Source: an uncultured Aquincola sp. | GTDB taxonomy: Bacteria; Pseudomonadota; Gammaproteobacteria; Burkholderiales; Burkholderiaceae | DNA: 7,488 bases | NCBI GenBank assembly: GCA_937883885.1 | Contig: CAKZXL010000106.1 | Location: 1-7,488 of the forward strand | Direction of reading: 5' to 3' | In this document: piece by piece, positions 884 to 6,958 of the stretch | How positions within the stretch are numbered: position 1 is the stretch's first letter | How the letters are laid out: every line of letters begins with the position of its first letter | The notes under the pieces: generated by a model | Database searches by the model: none | What the model saw: only the letters and a program-made list of their open reading frames with translations | What the model was told of the DNA's origin: nothing | Translations under genes and position numbers: made by a program

Positions 884-960
884 TGGTAGGCACGATTGGA
901 TTCGAACCAACGACCCCCACCATGTCAAGGTGGTGCTCTAACCAGCTGAGCTACGCGCCT
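884..960 (-). tRNA. tRNA-Val (anticodon GAC)
   Basis: The minus strand folds into a complete 77-base cloverleaf with encoded CCA. The acceptor stem AGGCGCG pairs with CGTGCCT with one G-U pair. The D arm is GCTC/GAGC with loop AGCTGGTTA. The anticodon arm CCACC/GGTGG has loop TTGACAT and anticodon GAC at 924-926. The T arm GTTGG/CCAAT has loop TTCGAAT. The CCA is at 884-886. The GAC anticodon reads GUC and GUU valine codons. Sequence and position just upstream of thrS fit Pseudomonas. The 5' end is overlapped by the reading frame of the neighbouring esterase, which stops at 951-953. Confidence 0.96.
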
Positions 961-1877
961 GTTGAGCCCACGACTATAGCAGACGGTTTTTCAGGTGCGC
1001 AAGCTTTTTCGGTTTTTTGTGCGCTGACGTCCGCGCCACCCGCGTGGGTGCATGCGAAGCCGGCCATGTCGCGCAGCGCGTTGCGGGCCGACGCCAGGAA
1101 GGCCCCCTGCAGATGGAACACATGCCAGCGGGCCGCATGCACCTGCAGCTCGCAGTGCACGCCGGCTGCGCGGGCCCGTGCGGCCAGCAGTTCGGCATCG
1201 GCCAGCAGCAATTCCTGGTCGCCCACCTGCACCAGCATCGGCGGCAGGCCCGCCAGGTCAGCGGGCGAAGGCGCGCACGGCATGGCGCCGTGCCAGCGCA
1301 GCCCCTGCTGCAGCCAGCCCAGGCGCAGCATCGGGTCGCGCACGCGCTGCGCACTGGCGCGGGCCGTGGCCAGGCTGCCATCGACCACCGGCGATATCAG
1401 CAGCAGGGCCGCCGGCAGAGGGCGGCCCTGCCGCTTCAAGGCCTGCGCCAGCTGCAGCGCCAGTGCGCCACCGGCCGAATCGCCCGCCAGCACGATGCGC
1501 CCGGCCGGCAGGCCTTGCCGCAGCAAGGCTTCGTAGCAGGCCAGCGCGTCAAGCAAGGGCGCGGGGTGTGGATGCTCGGGCGCCAGCCGGTACTGCGGCA
1601 CATGCACCGTCATGCCGCCGTCCCGGGCCAGGCGGGTGGTGATGCTGCGATGCGTGCGCGGGCTGCCCAGGCAGAAGGCACCACCGTGCAGGTAAAGCAT
1701 CCCCACCCCGTTGTCGCCACGATGCGGTGCCACCACCTCGGCGGGCACCGCCCCCAGCGACGCACGGTAGCGCAGCACGCCCCGCACGCCCGGCATCAGC
1801 GAGGAGAGCAGGCCCACCACCGCGCGCTGCGCCCCCCGGACCGAAGGGCGGCCCGACCAGGCTGCGGAAAGCCACAC
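951..1877 (-). CDS. HSL-family alpha/beta hydrolase (esterase), likely the C-terminal module of a BVMO-esterase fusion
   Basis: This is a carboxylester hydrolase of the hormone-sensitive-lipase family. In the frame read from a GTG at 1877 (308 residues) it has the oxyanion motif HGGAF (64-68) and the nucleophile elbow GDSAGG with Ser134. The likely acid is D220 in VGDQELL and the likely base H252 in WHVFH. It lies downstream of and overlaps the monooxygenase frame. The first 15 residues from this GTG do not look like the family. The family-like N-terminus (IAASLLRGLLRVAFRSL, GPPFG) is instead encoded in the monooxygenase frame just upstream. The true product therefore probably starts with the monooxygenase and crosses frames at 1832-1837. 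The C-terminus is also unnatural: after about residue 285 it reads tRNA-upstream DNA and stops in the tRNA gene. In the pathway it would cleave the ester made by the monooxygenase. Family call firm; expression as drawn doubtful. Confidence 0.8.
   Translation of the reverse strand: MWLSAAWSGRPSVRGAQRAVVGLLSSLMPGVRGVLRYRASLGAVPAEVVAPHRGDNGVGMLYLHGGAFCLGSPRTHRSITTRLARDGGMTVHVPQYRLAPEHPHPAPLLDALACYEALLRQGLPAGRIVLAGDSAGGALALQLAQALKRQGRPLPAALLLISPVVDGSLATARASAQRVRDPMLRLGWLQQGLRWHGAMPCAPSPADLAGLPPMLVQVGDQELLLADAELLAARARAAGVHCELQVHAARWHVFHLQGAFLASARNALRDMAGFACTHAGGADVSAQKTEKACAPEKPSAIVVGSTGA
973..1002 (-). promoter_or_regulatory. Sigma-70 promoter of tRNA-Val
   Basis: On the minus strand TTGCGC (997-1002) and TATAGT (973-978) are separated by 18 bases and lie 12 bases upstream of the mature tRNA 5' end. 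An A-rich tract follows upstream of the -35 (about 1003-1018), resembling an UP element. The spacing and AT-rich context are typical of a stable-RNA promoter. The promoter lies inside the extended reading frame of the esterase, so that reading frame probably does not end here in its native setting. Confidence 0.75.
1003..1030. other. Apparent junction between moderate-GC and high-GC DNA
   Basis: Base composition and apparent taxonomic affinity change here. To the left are a Pseudomonas-like tRNA promoter, tRNA-Val and thrS. To the right is dense high-GC coding sequence. The esterase family homology ends around residue 280 of its reading frame (about base 1040), and the following roughly 28 codons are the tRNA upstream region read as protein. 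I see no direct repeats, integrase gene or insertion-sequence end at the boundary. Confidence 0.55.
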
Positions 1878-3459
1878 GCAGCAAGCCGCGCAGCAGGCTG
1901 GCCGCGATGCGCTCCCCGATGCCTGGCGGGGGTGCCACCGTCACCGCCCCGGGCGACTCGGCCACCCTGGGGCGCTGCAGGCGGTAGTGGCCCAAGGGAG
2001 CCAAGCGCGTGAGCCAGCGGTAGGTGAAGGTGAAACCGGGCCAGTTGGTGGTGTTGTTGCCCAGCGCGTCGGTGTACCAGGAGCTGCAGCCGTTCCACAC
2101 CGTGCGGCGCAGCGCCTCCCGCACCACGCCCACCTGGGCGCGCTGCGGTTGCTCGCCGATCTCGACGGTGGCCCCGCCCGCGCGCCGCGATGCGCGGATG
2201 CAGCGCATCACATGCGCGATCTGGCTTTCGATCATGTAGAAGATCGAGTTGTGGCCCAGGTTGGTATTGGGCCCGTAGAGCATGAAAAAGCTCGGGAAGC
2301 CGGCGACGCTGATGCCGAGGTAGGCCGAGGCACCGTCGCGCCAGGCGTCGTTCAGGTCCAGGCCGCCGCGGCCGGTGATGCGCATCGGCGACAGGAACTC
2401 GGTGGCCGCAAAGCCGGTGCCATAGACGATGACGTCGGCTGCATGCACCTGCCCGTCCGTGGTCTCGATGCCATCGGGCCGCACGCAGCGGATGCCGGTG
2501 GTGTGCAGCTGCACGTTGGGCCGGGCGATGGTGGCCAGGTAGTCGCTGCTGAGCAGGATGCGCTTGCAGCCGATCGGGTAGTCGGGCGTCAGCTGGGCGC
2601 GCAAGGCGGCGTCGGGCACCTGCTGGTGCAGCATGCGCGCAAAGGGCCTGCCCACCGCGCGGTGCATCAGGCCCTTGAAGCGGGTGAACGCCAGTGCGCG
2701 CGATTCGTAGGCCAGGTAGATCCAGGCGCGGTGCAAGGCCGCCGCAGCCGGCACGTGGCGGAAGACGGCCTGCTCCAGCCGGCTGTAGGGCCGGTCGGGC
2801 CGCGGCATCAGGTACGCAGGCGAGCGCTGGAACACATGCAGCGTGCCCACCTGCGGCGCGATGGCCGGCACGAACTGGATGGCCGAAGCCCCGGTGCCCA
2901 CCACCGCCACCCGCCGGCCGGCCAGCGGCACACGGGCGTCCCATTGCGCCGAATGGAAGCTGGGGCCGCGGAAGGTCTCGATGCCCGGCAGCTTCGGCCA
3001 GGCGGGCCGGCTCAGCTGGCCGGTGCCGCTCACCAGCACCCGGCACCAGAGTACCTGGCCGTCGGCCAGCGTGACACGCCACAGCGCCCGGCCTTCTTCA
3101 TGGTGGGCCGCGGCCACGGTGCAGCCCAGGCGGATGTGCGGCAGCAGCCCGTACTTGCGCGCGCAATGCTGCAGGTAGGCCAGGATCTCGGCCTGCGGCG
3201 CGAACACGCGGGACCACCGCGGGTTGGGCTCGAACGAGAACGAGTACAGGTGCGACGGTACGTCGCAGGCCGCGCCGGGATACGCGTTGTCGCGCCACAC
3301 GCCGCCCACGTCCTGGCCCTTTTCCAGCAGCACGAAGTCATGGATGCCGGCCTTGCGCAAGGCCACGGCCATGCCCAGGCCGGCAAAGCCGGCGCCGATG
3401 ATCAGCACCGACAGCGGCGTGGCGTCGGACTGCCCCGCGGAAGGGTCAAGCGTGTGCAT
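1549..3459 (-). CDS. Baeyer-Villiger-type flavin monooxygenase, frameshifted before its fused esterase domain
   Basis: This is a class B FAD/NADPH flavoprotein monooxygenase, a family that inserts oxygen into ketones to give esters. From ATG 3459, preceded by a GGGAGG ribosome site, it shows the FAD motif GAGFAG (22-27) and the fingerprint F-x-G-x-x-x-H-x-x-x-W (163-173, FRGPSFHSAQW). Also present are the NADPH motif GTGASA (188-193), YPIGCKRILLSSDY (294-307), GTGF (347-350) and GPNTNLGHNS (396-405). The monooxygenase domain ends near residue 495. Residues 505-542 resemble the N-terminus of the esterase. After the G-run at 1832-1837 the frame is wrong and about 95 residues of junk follow. Removing one G joins it to the esterase, giving about 835 residues. 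The start overlaps the GMC gene's end by 14 bases, suggesting coupled translation. Substrate unknown. Confidence 0.85.
   Translation of the reverse strand: MHTLDPSAGQSDATPLSVLIIGAGFAGLGMAVALRKAGIHDFVLLEKGQDVGGVWRDNAYPGAACDVPSHLYSFSFEPNPRWSRVFAPQAEILAYLQHCARKYGLLPHIRLGCTVAAAHHEEGRALWRVTLADGQVLWCRVLVSGTGQLSRPAWPKLPGIETFRGPSFHSAQWDARVPLAGRRVAVVGTGASAIQFVPAIAPQVGTLHVFQRSPAYLMPRPDRPYSRLEQAVFRHVPAAAALHRAWIYLAYESRALAFTRFKGLMHRAVGRPFARMLHQQVPDAALRAQLTPDYPIGCKRILLSSDYLATIARPNVQLHTTGIRCVRPDGIETTDGQVHAADVIVYGTGFAATEFLSPMRITGRGGLDLNDAWRDGASAYLGISVAGFPSFFMLYGPNTNLGHNSIFYMIESQIAHVMRCIRASRRAGGATVEIGEQPQRAQVGVVREALRRTVWNGCSSWYTDALGNNTTNWPGFTFTYRWLTRLAPLGHYRLQRPRVAESPGAVTVAPPPGIGERIAASLLRGLLRVAFRSLVGPPFGPGGAARGGGPALLADAGRAGRAALPCVAGGGARRGGGTASWRQRGGDALPARWCLLPGQPAHASQHHHPPGPGRRHDGACAAVPAGARASTPRALA
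1832..1837 (-). other. Homopolymer frameshift site in the monooxygenase-esterase gene
   Basis: The plus strand carries six C (six G in the mRNA). Read as six, the monooxygenase frame leaves the esterase homology. Read as five, the protein continues GPPFG-PG-AQRAVVGLL without a break. One extra base in a homopolymer is a common sequencing error, but it could also be a real mutation or a slippage site. Confidence 0.75.
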
Positions 3460-5100
3460 GGCGGGCCTCCCGGACAGGCAGATCGGTCTCGTCGGGGTCG
3501 GGCCGCACACGCGCCCGACCCCGCATCAGGTCGACCGCCTTCTCGGCGATCATGATCGTGGGTGCATTGGTGTTGCCGCTGACCAGCGTGGGCATCACCG
3601 AAGCTTCGGCGATGCGCAGGCCCTGCACACCGCGCACCCGCAGCTGCGGATCGACCACCGCCTGCGCGTCGTTGCCCATGCGGCAGGTACCCACCGGGTG
3701 GTGGACGGTGTCGGTGCGGGCGCGCAGCACGGCGCGGATCTGCTCGTCGGTGTGCACGCCTTCGGTGAACAGGTCGTGGGTGATGCGCGAGGCCAGCGCC
3801 GGCGCCTGCATCAGGCGGCGCGTCAGCTTGAAACCCTGCACCAGGTCTTCCAGGTCCTGCGGGTCGGTGAGGAAGCCCGGGTCGATCAAGGGCGCGGCCT
3901 GCGGATCGGCGCTGGCCAGAGACAGCGTGCCGCGGCTGCGCGGCCGCAACAGGCACACATGGCACGACACCCCGTGCGACAGGCGCAGCTTGCGAGCATG
4001 GTCCTCGACCAGCGACACCACGAAGTGCAGCTGCACGTCGGGCGCCACCAGCGACGGCCGGGTGCGCAGGAAGCCGCCGCACTCGGCGAAGTTGCTGGTC
4101 AGCATGCCGCGCCGCTGGCGCATGAATCGCCAGCCTTCACGCAGCAGGCGAAGGCCACCGCGCAGCGACACGCCCAGCGCGTCGGTGCCGCGCATGCGGT
4201 AGCCGAAGATGACATCGGGATGGTCCTGCAGGTTGCGGCCCACGCCCGGCAGGTGCAGCCGCGTGGGCAGGCCCAGGCGGCCCAGCAGATGCATCGGCCC
4301 GATGCCCGAGAGCATCAGCAATTGCGGCGTCTGCAGCGCACCGGCACACAGCACCACCTCGCGCCGCGCGCGCAGCTGCCGCAGCTGCCCGCCCTGCCGG
4401 TATTCCACGCCCACCGCCCGCCCTCGAACAGCACCCGCTGCACATGGGCATGCGTCTCGACCCGCAGGTGGTGCCGCCGACCCAGGTGCGGCAGCAGAAA
4501 GGCCCGCGCAGCGCTGCAGCGCTCGCCGTGCTTCTGGGTGAGCTGGAAGCGGCCCAGGCCCTCCATCTCGGCGCCATTGAAGTCGTCGTTGACCGCAAAG
4601 CCCGCCTCCCGCGCGGCCGCGATGAAGCGCTGGTGCAGCGGGTTGTCGGTGCGCGGGTCGCTGACCCACAGCGGACCGCCGCGACCATGCCAGGCATCGG
4701 CCAGGCGTTCGTTGTGCTCGCTGAGCCGGAAGTACGGCAGTACCTCGCGCCACGACCAGCCATCGGCGCCCTGGGCGGCCCAGCCGTCGTAGTCGCTGCG
4801 GTGGCCACGGGTGTAGACCATGGCATTGATGGCCGACGAGCCGCTCAGCGCCTTGCCGCGCGGCTGGTAGCCGCGGCGCCCGTTCAGGCCCGGCTGCGGC
4901 ACCGTCTCGAAGGCCCAGTTGTTGAGCCGGGTGGGCAGCATGGCCACCGCGCCCGTCGGCACGCGGATGACCGTGTCGTTGCCGTCGCCCCCCGCTTCCA
5001 GCAGGCACACCCGGGTGGCGGGGTCTTCGCTCAGCCTGCCGGCCACCACCGCGCCGCCCGAGCCGCCACCCACCACCAGGTAGTCGAAGACGTCGCTCAT
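3446..5100 (-). pseudogene. AlkJ/BetA-like GMC family FAD alcohol dehydrogenase, one-base frameshift
   Basis: GMC flavoenzymes of this group oxidise alcohols to aldehydes or ketones; AlkJ of the alkane pathway is the closest relative I can recall. From ATG 5100 the protein shows the FAD motif GGGSGG (11-16), LLEAGG (33-38), and the GMC signature region [20 protein letters not shown]. After the frame change come [19 protein letters not shown], the catalytic His in HHPVGTCRMG, and SGNTNAPTIM, which carries the second active-site residue (Asn). As read, the first frame stops at 4315 after 261 residues. Restoring one base at about 4417-4422 gives 551 residues, the normal family length, so nothing else is missing. 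The start overlaps the synthetase stop as ATGA, and the gene's own stop overlaps the monooxygenase start. It is either a true pseudogene or an intact gene with a base miscall in a GC-rich run. Confidence 0.85.
4417..4422 (-). other. Frameshift site in the GMC dehydrogenase gene
   Basis: The minus strand reads GAG GGC GG and then GCG GTG GGC GTG GAA in the other frame (V-L-F-E-G, then A-V-G-V-E-Y). One base is missing between the two frames. The surrounding run GGGCGGGCGG is the kind of sequence where a single G is easily lost. Family members have a continuous VLFE-x-x-x-AVGV segment here. Confidence 0.75.
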
Positions 5101-5780
5101 GCCTGCGCCCCTTCCACCGCCGGCTGGGCCAGGGCCCGGGCAGCGGCACCGAAGCGCTCGCGCAGCACCTGCTTGAGCACCTTGCCGGTGGCCAGGTTTT
5201 CCACCTCCACCGAGCTGATCCATTCACCGCCCGACTTGATCAGGTCCTTGGCGCGGTCGGTGATGGTGAGGTCGCCGTCGGCATCGATGGTGGCCACGTC
5301 GCCGGTGCGGAACCAGCCGTCCTCCAGTGCATCGTGGTCGTGGTCGGCCGCCAGATCCACGCCTTCGGCTTCCATCAGCGCGTACAGCGAGGCGCCGTCC
5401 AGCGCCGGGCCGGGCAACACCGGCTTGGCGCCGGCCAGGGCCGTGGCACACGGCAGCACAGGGGTGCGCGCCGACGGGTTCAGCGCGTCGGGCAGCGCCC
5501 CCGCACAGGCATGCAGCACCGTGACCTGGTGCGTGTACAGCACGCCCGGGCACTGCGGCCGCAGTGCCTGCACCAGCGGCGCCAAGGTGGCGTCACAGCA
5601 GACGATGCGGTCGTCGGCGTCGTTGATGATCCAGGCGAGCTGCGTGGGCGCCAGCCGCGGGTTTCGCCAGTCGGTGCGGTGCAGGTCGCCTTCGACGCGC
5701 CGGCTGACGATCTCGGCATCGCCATGGTGCCGCTCGGCATGGGTGAGCAGCGAAGCCACGGTGAGCGGCCGCTGCTGCAT
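5097..5780 (-). pseudogene. AlkK-like medium-chain acyl-CoA synthetase with five in-frame internal deletions
   Basis: The intact family (about 540 residues) activates fatty acids as acyl-adenylates and then acyl-CoA. Here 227 residues remain, in six family-like blocks in the correct order. They are residues 1-39 (N-terminus), 40-78 (NPRLAPTQ...), 79-112 (GVLYTH...), 113-141 ([13 protein letters not shown]), 142-197 ([31 protein letters not shown]) and 198-227 (TGKVLKQ with the catalytic-type Lys). Compared with AlkK from memory, about 50, 60, 13, 180 and 75 residues are missing at the joins. The losses include the P-loop YTSGTTG-x-PK and the central A4-A5 core, so it should not adenylate. The frame never breaks. 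The start at ATG 5780 is chosen because family homology begins there. The frame is open upstream to 5906, and no strong ribosome site is visible. It is first in the operon, and its stop overlaps the GMC start as ATGA. Confidence 0.85.
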
Positions 5781-5837
5781 GGAAGTCACGGGAGATGAGC
5801 ACTCGGACATGGCGGCAGATGCGGTTGCTAAGACCTG

Positions 5838-5875
5838 CCCATGTTCAGCCGCACCGGGGTCATCACCCATGTCCA
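5838..5875. promoter_or_regulatory. Direct repeat in the divergent promoter region, candidate AraC-family operator
   Basis: Between the regulator and the catabolic operon, CCCATGTTCA (5838-5847) and CCCATGTCCA (5866-5875) match in nine of ten bases in the same orientation, 28 bases apart start to start. AraC-family proteins use two helix-turn-helices and often bind direct half-site repeats, so this is a reasonable operator for the adjacent regulator. The two 10-mers are short and could be chance. An A/T-rich TTTAGTATTT at 5890-5899 is the only -10-like element here, and no good -35 accompanies it on either strand. Confidence 0.35.
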
Positions 5876-5932
5876 CAACGGCCTGAAGCTTTAGTATTTC
5901 GGACACTGCAGCCCGGCTAGGGGAAACAACCG

Positions 5933-6958
5933 ATGAGCTTCTGGAACTTCACGCGGGGCCCCGCCAGCGTGTGCCTGCTGCTGGATGTGGGCGCACAGCG
6001 CGGCCTGGCCGCATCGGCCCTGCTGGCCCGCAGCCGCCTCACCCAGGCGCAGCTCGAAGACCCGAATGCGGAGGTGCATGCGCTGCAGGAACTGCGCGTG
6101 GTGGAGAACCTGATGCGGCTGCTGGGCAACCCGCCCGGCCTGGGCCTGGCGGTGGGGCTGCAGTACCGCTTTTCCACTTTCGGGCTCTGGGGCTACGGGC
6201 TGGTGTGCAGCGCCACCCTGGGCGCGGCGATGGCGCGGGCCTTGCGCTTCATCCAGCTCACCTACGCCTACTCGGTGATCGAGCACAGCCTGGAGCAGCA
6301 CAGCGCCTGGCTGCGGCTGACACCGCCCGACATGGCCACCGGCATCAGCCGCTTCCTGGTCGAGCGCGACCTGGCGGCGGCAGCCGCGCTGCTGGCCGAA
6401 CTGGGCGGGCCGGGCTTCCAGCTGCAGCGCTTCGAACTGCAACGTGGCCGCGGCCGTGCCTTCCGGCCATCGCCGGAGGTCGGCCGGGTGGCGGGCGTGC
6501 TGCCGGCCTACGACGCGGACGGCTATGGCCTGTGCTTCGATGCGAAGTGGCTGAACCACCCTCTGCCGCATGCCAACCCGACGTCCGCAGCGATGTGCGA
6601 CGACCTGTGCGCCAGGCTGGTGGAACGCCGACGCCTGCGCGGTGGCACCGGCATGCTGGTGCAGCAGGTGCTGGGCGCCACCGCGCCCGAAGCGCGCCAG
6701 GGCGCCGGCAAGCTGGCCGAGATGACCGGCACCAGCGAGCGCACGCTGCGGCGCCGGCTGCGCCGCGAAGGCCTGTCCTACCGGTCCATCCTGGCGGCCA
6801 CGCAATCGAGCGACGCGCTGGAGCTGCTGGCCGACCGGTCGCTCACCGTCACCGCCATCGCCGAACGGCTGGGTTATGCCGACCTGTCCACGTTTTCGCA
6901 GGCCTTCAAGCGCTGGCACGGGGTGTCGCCGGCGGTCTACCGGCGCTCTTTGGGGTGA
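5933..6958 (+). CDS. AraC-family transcriptional regulator with Arabinose_bd-type sensor domain
   Basis: A 341-residue cytoplasmic DNA-binding regulator of normal family length. The N-terminal part (about 20-205) fits the Arabinose_bd sensor type seen in OruR-like regulators, including the G-L-W-G-Y segment (84-88) and Y-S-V-I-E-H. The C-terminal AraC DNA-binding domain has a first helix-turn-helix at about 259-277 ([16 protein letters not shown]) and a second at about 304-327. It ends in the family signature [28 protein letters not shown] (311-338). ATG 5933 follows AGGGGA at a usual distance. It is divergent from the alcohol, ketone and ester operon, a classic arrangement for an activator responding to a pathway substrate. 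It could instead act on the glutamine-synthetase-like gene downstream on the same strand. Unlike the operon it faces, it is intact and has the same high GC. Confidence 0.93.

Follow-up and report, generated by a model that had tools for sequence, protein, structure and literature searches.

How does an acyl-CoA synthetase gene from which five internal pieces are missing come to retain a reading frame that is open from start to stop, and is such a gene an error of the data, a decaying remnant, a short protein in its own right or a frame kept open for the benefit of the gene that follows it? The question is raised by a stretch of 7,488 nucleotides, the whole of which was analysed and is hereafter called the window.

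Six blocks and five joins

The gene lies on the minus strand as an open reading frame of 237 aa, running from an ATG at 5810 to a TGA at 5097; the start given in the original prediction, at 5780, makes it ten codons shorter. The longer start is seen in P0001, P0004 and P0121, the shorter one being given for P0002, P0003 and P0122 (P0001–P0003 are the compact relatives described below). The six ordered blocks of the remnant align with full-length acyl-CoA synthetases, the closest of those found being P0121 (545 aa) and P0122 (535 aa; its source name is that of a Variovorax MAG protein). Relative to P0121, gaps of 51, 54, 13, 127 and 67 aa follow residues 49, 88, 121, 155 and 206, with 312 residues absent in total and the frame kept at all five joins. 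The features are as follows:

5097..5810, minus strand, compact acyl-CoA synthetase remnant, 237 codons, six parent blocks (from the alignment and the family profile)
5663..5664, minus strand, join 1, 51 aa absent relative to P0121, without a residue repeat
5546..5547, minus strand, join 2, 54 aa absent relative to P0121, SGTTGHPKG among them
5447..5448, minus strand, join 3, 13 aa absent relative to P0121
5345..5346, minus strand, join 4, 127 aa absent relative to P0121, HAWGMTE among them, without a residue repeat
5192..5193, minus strand, join 5, 67 aa absent relative to P0121, i.e., most of the C-terminal domain, with a one-residue Ala repeat

The alignment to P0121 confirms the five in-frame internal deletions, with the order of the blocks kept, that had been described from the window; the joins first proposed (5663, 5546, 5444, 5357 and 5189) lie 0 to 11 bases off the measured ones, and the losses first proposed (50, 60, 13, 180 and 75 residues) come near to those found, except for the fourth, which is 127 and not 180.

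Join 2 has a Gly-Val repeat on both edges when compared with P0121 and P0122 and none when compared with P0123 and P0124. Join 3 has a three-residue Leu-Pro-Tyr repeat on both edges, as judged from P0002 against P0121–P0124; in the window a Cys replaces the Tyr, bringing the repeat score to 0. When random in-frame deletions were simulated in P0121, a residue repeat of at least two was obtained in 1.2% of them.

Family identity and loss of the catalytic core

The curated family that scores best with the remnant is 3-(methylthio)propionyl-CoA ligase (NCBIfam NF005426), with 207.7 bits distributed over four stretches; this lies below the family cut-off of 822 bits, above which the control P0121 is found (827.7). 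The label originally given was AlkK, the best curated family here being another one. The score of the remnant and the existence of three compact relatives (see below) show that the likeness does not arise by chance. The solved structure that best matches P0121 by sequence is 6ihk.

The motif SGTTGHPKG, which we take to be the ATP-binding P-loop, falls in gap 2 and HAWGMTE in gap 4, the SGTTG-PKG stretch being lost with gap 2 from P0001–P0003 as well as from the window. At an E-value of 10 no Pfam family was found in any of the four compact proteins, whereas both AMP-binding and AMP-binding_C were found in P0121. Judged from these motifs and from the lack of a Pfam AMP-binding match, the catalytic core is lost from the remnant, in agreement with what had been claimed. 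A single AlphaFold2 model of the compact protein (alignment of 34) gave a mean pLDDT of 44.6 and a pTM of 0.31, values that have no full-length control beside them.

Compact relatives and integrity of the contig

A search of a large protein collection with the compact protein returned three relatives matching over the entire query, P0001 (94%), P0002 (90%) and P0003 (91%), whose identity to the window copy upon direct alignment is 92.8, 89.8 and 96.3%, respectively. The P0001 cluster comprises four member sequences and two contigs, the longest of 41 kb; the contig of P0003 measures 5.0 kb. All three relatives share the five joins of the window, P0003 having in addition a sixth gap of 13 residues, in frame, located between two Val-Leu-Pro repeats; furthermore, all four compact copies share a C-terminal tail of 13 residues that is identical up to its last residue and does not resemble that of the aligned full-length proteins. 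Inactivating joins common to related copies, by which an inherited pseudogene remnant is recognised, are therefore present in the form of five identical joins in P0001–P0003. The next match, P0004, is of the full-length type and has none of the five gaps, the match fading towards its end.

As a separate observation, P0004 ceases to match the family beyond about residue 311 and could represent a further broken synthetase from this lineage.

An assembly artefact, which had been held to be the main rival explanation, is ruled out for the joins because the same five occur in three further protein clusters. Comparison of these sequences indicates that the compact gene is most likely real and inherited, rather than an error of assembly.

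Compact DNA was not seen among 399 sampled genomes of the family, in the matches listed best first; 391 of the 399 matched at an E-value of 0.001, the best match covering 138 of 715 bases at 87%. None was found among 16 genomes of the genus at 1e-60, the six that matched doing so in the regulator or GMC stretch, nor in viral contigs, where 12 stretches matched the pattern and one encoded a relative, with a full-length frame of 542 aa. As to plasmids, 464 records matched, the best 20 of the 464 aligning in two or three pieces, as full-length homologues would.

The contig that contains the window is probably chimeric at or inside tRNA-Val, natural recombination being the alternative. Positions 1–961 match Pseudomonadaceae thrS and tRNA-Val (98% to the locus L088; 26 of 248 family genomes passed 1e-230 for this stretch), and L088 and L089 run on into a frame judged by eye to be uvrB; past 961 the window consists of a segment of about 70–75% GC with beta-proteobacterial relatives. 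The 5′ half of the tRNA-Val of the window is unlike that of relatives. The chimeric join does not touch the remnant.

Operon setting and overlap with the GMC gene

The genes that accompany the remnant are the following:

951..3480, minus strand, flavin monooxygenase (Pfam FMO-like) then alpha/beta hydrolase, the frame being broken near 1850 in the window
3446..5100, minus strand, GMC oxidoreductase gene, its frame interrupted near 4420 in the window and intact in the homologue P0240
5097..5100, minus strand, ATGA overlap of the remnant stop and the GMC start, read from the window
5933..6958, plus strand, divergent AraC-family regulator

The flavin monooxygenase is presumably of the Baeyer-Villiger type and the families of these enzymes make a pathway alcohol → ketone → ester → acid likely. 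Monooxygenase and hydrolase form one fused frame in the loci L002 and L015; the two fusions (L002:7365-10034 and L015:2624-5131, of 889 and 835 aa) appear to be natural.

A total of 21 loci with the AraC regulator was collected, ten of which (L005, L006, L007, L009, L010 and L013–L017) have the GMC gene downstream of the divergent regulator and then the monooxygenase, where the contig reaches it. Left out of the ten were L004 and L008, where the GMC gene is about 2.4 kb away and this monooxygenase is absent, and L011, in which a synthetase and a GMC gene are located in another place, on the opposite strand. In L015 and L016, two of the ten, the interval between regulator and GMC gene contains a full-length synthetase together with an aldehyde-dehydrogenase-like gene, and L017 retains an ORF like the latter. 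No synthetase match was obtained in this interval in the remaining eight (compact query, E-value of 1e-5), so that the synthetase is often absent and appears dispensable. In searches with the GMC gene, 69 of the 399 family genomes passed 1e-190, with a best identity of 75%, and, at 1e-250, one of two and four of 17 genomes were matched in the genus searches.

The overlap with the GMC gene that had been reported is indeed present in the window, at 5100–5097, and a purine-rich GGAAGGGG inside the end of the remnant ends 7 nt upstream of the GMC ATG. A promoter scan of positions 5700–6000 found nothing. In a study of coupled gene pairs (PMC6728339), downstream translation was lost in nine of nine Haloferax pairs once the upstream gene contained a stop, and of five overlapping pairs of E. 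coli three were strongly coupled, one to about 60% and one not at all. The GMC break at about 4420 and the monooxygenase/hydrolase break at about 1850 both fall in short G-rich repeats; be it real or a data error, the former weakens the case for coupling as far as the window copy is concerned.

Repeat phase and the open frame

According to the original prediction, five independent random deletions would all stay in frame only about once in 240 cases. This naive test, in which each deletion is granted one-third (1/243), was replaced by a repeat-phase null derived from 21 of 23 full-length homologous genes, near-duplicates having been dropped (an earlier run comprised 25 genes, with none dropped). 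In the 21 acyl-CoA synthetase genes, the two copies of a direct repeat of at least 8 nt, spaced by 30–600 nt, agree in codon phase in 631 of 800 instances, and the in-frame share increases with the homology at the junction, being 0.300 at 0 nt, 0.424 at 3 nt, 0.620 at 6 nt and 0.760 at 8 nt, so that junction homologies of 6–8 nt leave 62–76% of the deletions in frame. Since short repeats mostly share codon phase, most deletions between them should preserve the reading frame of such a gene.

With the homology range of each join set by hand from the residue repeats (5–7 nt for join 3, for which P0002 suggests slightly more), the chance that five of five deletions are in frame under the repeat-phase null is roughly 1.2–4.0%, and that of six of six is 0.8–3.5%. 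The figure of once in 240 is thus too strong, the null giving about 1–4% for a finding that was, moreover, picked for its open frame. As to the companion claim, that either selection kept the frame or one process produced all the deletions, the repeat phase bias partly explains the open frame, and selection for the frame is possible but unproven. More generally, in GC-rich bacterial genes like these, selection can be overestimated when in-frame deletions are judged against a one-in-three expectation. Among the matches listed in a literature search, no paper was recognised on frame-only remnants or on the in-frame bias of repeats in bacterial genes; a literature search for the operon returned nothing.

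Constraint or drift of the protein sequence

For each of 218 retained columns, entropy was calculated from 121 full-length rows, 119 of them proteins and the other two L015 and L016. At the 30 columns where the four compact copies vary, the mean family entropy is 0.515, compared with an expected 0.515, the mean over all 218 columns (p 0.49), whereas the differences within functional pairs fall at a mean entropy of 0.88–0.97 in four of five pairs (p 0.0002 or less), the fifth pair, P0121/P0122, having 14 differences at a mean of 0.70 (p 0.12). Strongly conserved columns account for 15 of the 30 compact varying sites as opposed to 5/57, 6/48, 5/26 and 5/14 in functional pairs over the same columns. 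Furthermore, at 110 conserved columns the family residue is replaced 10, 9, 16 and 8 times in the four compact copies, compared with 0.7 times on average and 11 at most in the 121 full-length rows, by which these columns are also defined.

The outcome depends on the copies that are included. When the analysis is limited to columns present in all four compact copies, the mean entropy is 0.571 compared with 0.523 (p 0.33), and when the window copy is left out the mean at varying sites is 0.456 (p 0.69). Of the 13 changes that occur in P0002 and in no other compact copy, 10 affect conserved columns; once P0002 is removed, the varying sites have a mean entropy of 0.737 compared with 0.520 (p 0.08) and 4 of 16 lie in conserved columns (p 0.08 against chance), while the pair formed by the window copy and P0003, with eight differences at a mean entropy of 0.957 (p 0.027), displays the functional pattern.

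A second indication is provided by rates. The compact gene differs from P0002 at 23 of 226 residues and the two GMC parts of the window differ from P0240 at 13 of 546, a ratio of 4.3; in the functional operons L015 and L016 the synthetases differ at 26 of 218 and the GMC proteins at 44 of 529 residues, a ratio of 1.43. The two ratios are separated by a z of 2.6 (a Poisson probability of 6e-6, if the functional ratio is treated as exact), in a comparison that has P0002 as its one compact relative and takes P0002 and P0240 to be neighbours on one contig, as is suggested by their contigs both having 6827 bases and the source label ena. Sequencing error is an improbable cause of the fast compact rate because the GMC gene should suffer equally.

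Stops are absent from the four compact copies, about 1.1 being expected in 30 changes at a nonsense-to-missense opportunity of 0.036–0.038; given so low an expectation, the lack of stops was rejected as a sign of selection.

Taken as a whole, the old amino-acid constraint looks lost in the compact gene, with a signal that leans on P0002: the loss appears clear for this copy and is no more than possible for the other three. A short protein under clear purifying selection, the outcome by which the idea of a reduced synthetase was originally said to fall, receives no clear support overall, although without P0002 the variation leans to variable columns.

Possible explanations

What could then be the nature of the compact gene? 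The best explanation, which we hold to be reasonably probable, is an inherited, decaying acyl-CoA synthetase pseudogene whose frame is possibly also held for coupling to the GMC gene. An AraC-linked operon of GMC oxidoreductase, flavin monooxygenase and hydrolase would thus be headed by a pseudogene, five internal pieces of which would have been lost in the common ancestor of the known compact copies, presumably by short-repeat-mediated deletion, a cause that fits the repeats seen at some joins. The remaining sequence would drift, as indicated mainly by one copy, P0002. The frame would be open partly through the repeats that, in a codon-structured GC-rich gene such as the 21 homologues, mostly share codon phase, and probably also through ribosomes that cross the remnant and feed the GMC start by termination-reinitiation, in-frame remnants being tolerated and frame-breaking ones selected against. 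A stricter version, which we would put forward only tentatively, is that of a frame-only gene in which selection keeps the phase for the GMC start while the amino acids drift and deletions are filtered modulo three. If the frame were held for coupling alone, pseudogenes leading an operon would offer a natural readout of the dependence of their neighbours on translational coupling.

A purely neutral remnant, owing its open frame to the phase bias of repeats, to the short time elapsed and to selective reporting, seems unlikely, yet much of the evidence can be accommodated by it: the in-frame share goes from 30% without homology to 76% at 8 nt in the 21 full-length genes, hardly more than one stop was to be expected, the finding was in all likelihood chosen for its open frame, and a GC content at third positions of 0.878 in the remnant, compared with 0.89–0.92 in the neighbouring genes, fits recent decay. 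Against it, the chance of all five deletions being in frame is still only that given by the repeat-phase null, joins 1 and 4 lack a residue repeat, and the four copies are free of frameshifts, although a protein-based search under-reports, and may miss, compact copies with broken frames.

That selection acts on a new short non-catalytic protein (a scaffold, a regulator or a leader peptide) is in our opinion distinctly improbable. The sharing of blocks and C-terminal tail by four copies speaks in its favor, as does the placement of varying sites once P0002 is removed, and new constraints unlike the old ones could slip past these tests; on the other hand, in the four copies together the varying sites are random relative to family conservation, the changes of P0002 are mostly at conserved columns, the rate relative to the GMC gene is fast and the single model, itself without a control, offers no confident fold. 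The explanation with the least to recommend it, which we regard as very nearly negligible, is an assembly or sequencing artefact of the window contig; the probable chimera at tRNA-Val and the frame breaks in short repeats of two neighbouring genes would be in line with it, but the same five joins recur in three further clusters, which come from different contigs and bear two source labels. The decaying pseudogene whose frame may also serve the GMC start is thus the reading that we retain.

Comparison with known systems

With the coupled ATGA pairs (PMC6728339) the locus has in common the four-base overlap and a purine-rich stretch in the end of the upstream gene; it differs in that the upstream gene is the remnant of an enzyme and in that its coupling is putative.

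The likeness to 3-(methylthio)propionyl-CoA ligase (NF005426; PDB 6ihk and 6ijb) consists in the blocks of the remnant aligning in order with this top curated family; unlike the ligase, the remnant lacks 312 residues (relative to P0121), the P-loop, most of the C-terminal domain and a Pfam AMP-binding match.

Finally, bacterial pseudogenes with multiple deletions resemble the compact gene in having inactivating deletions shared by descent and signs of relaxed constraint. The compact gene departs from them in that its five deletions, six in P0003, all keep one open frame and in that, in the window, this open frame reaches the ATGA overlap with the next gene.
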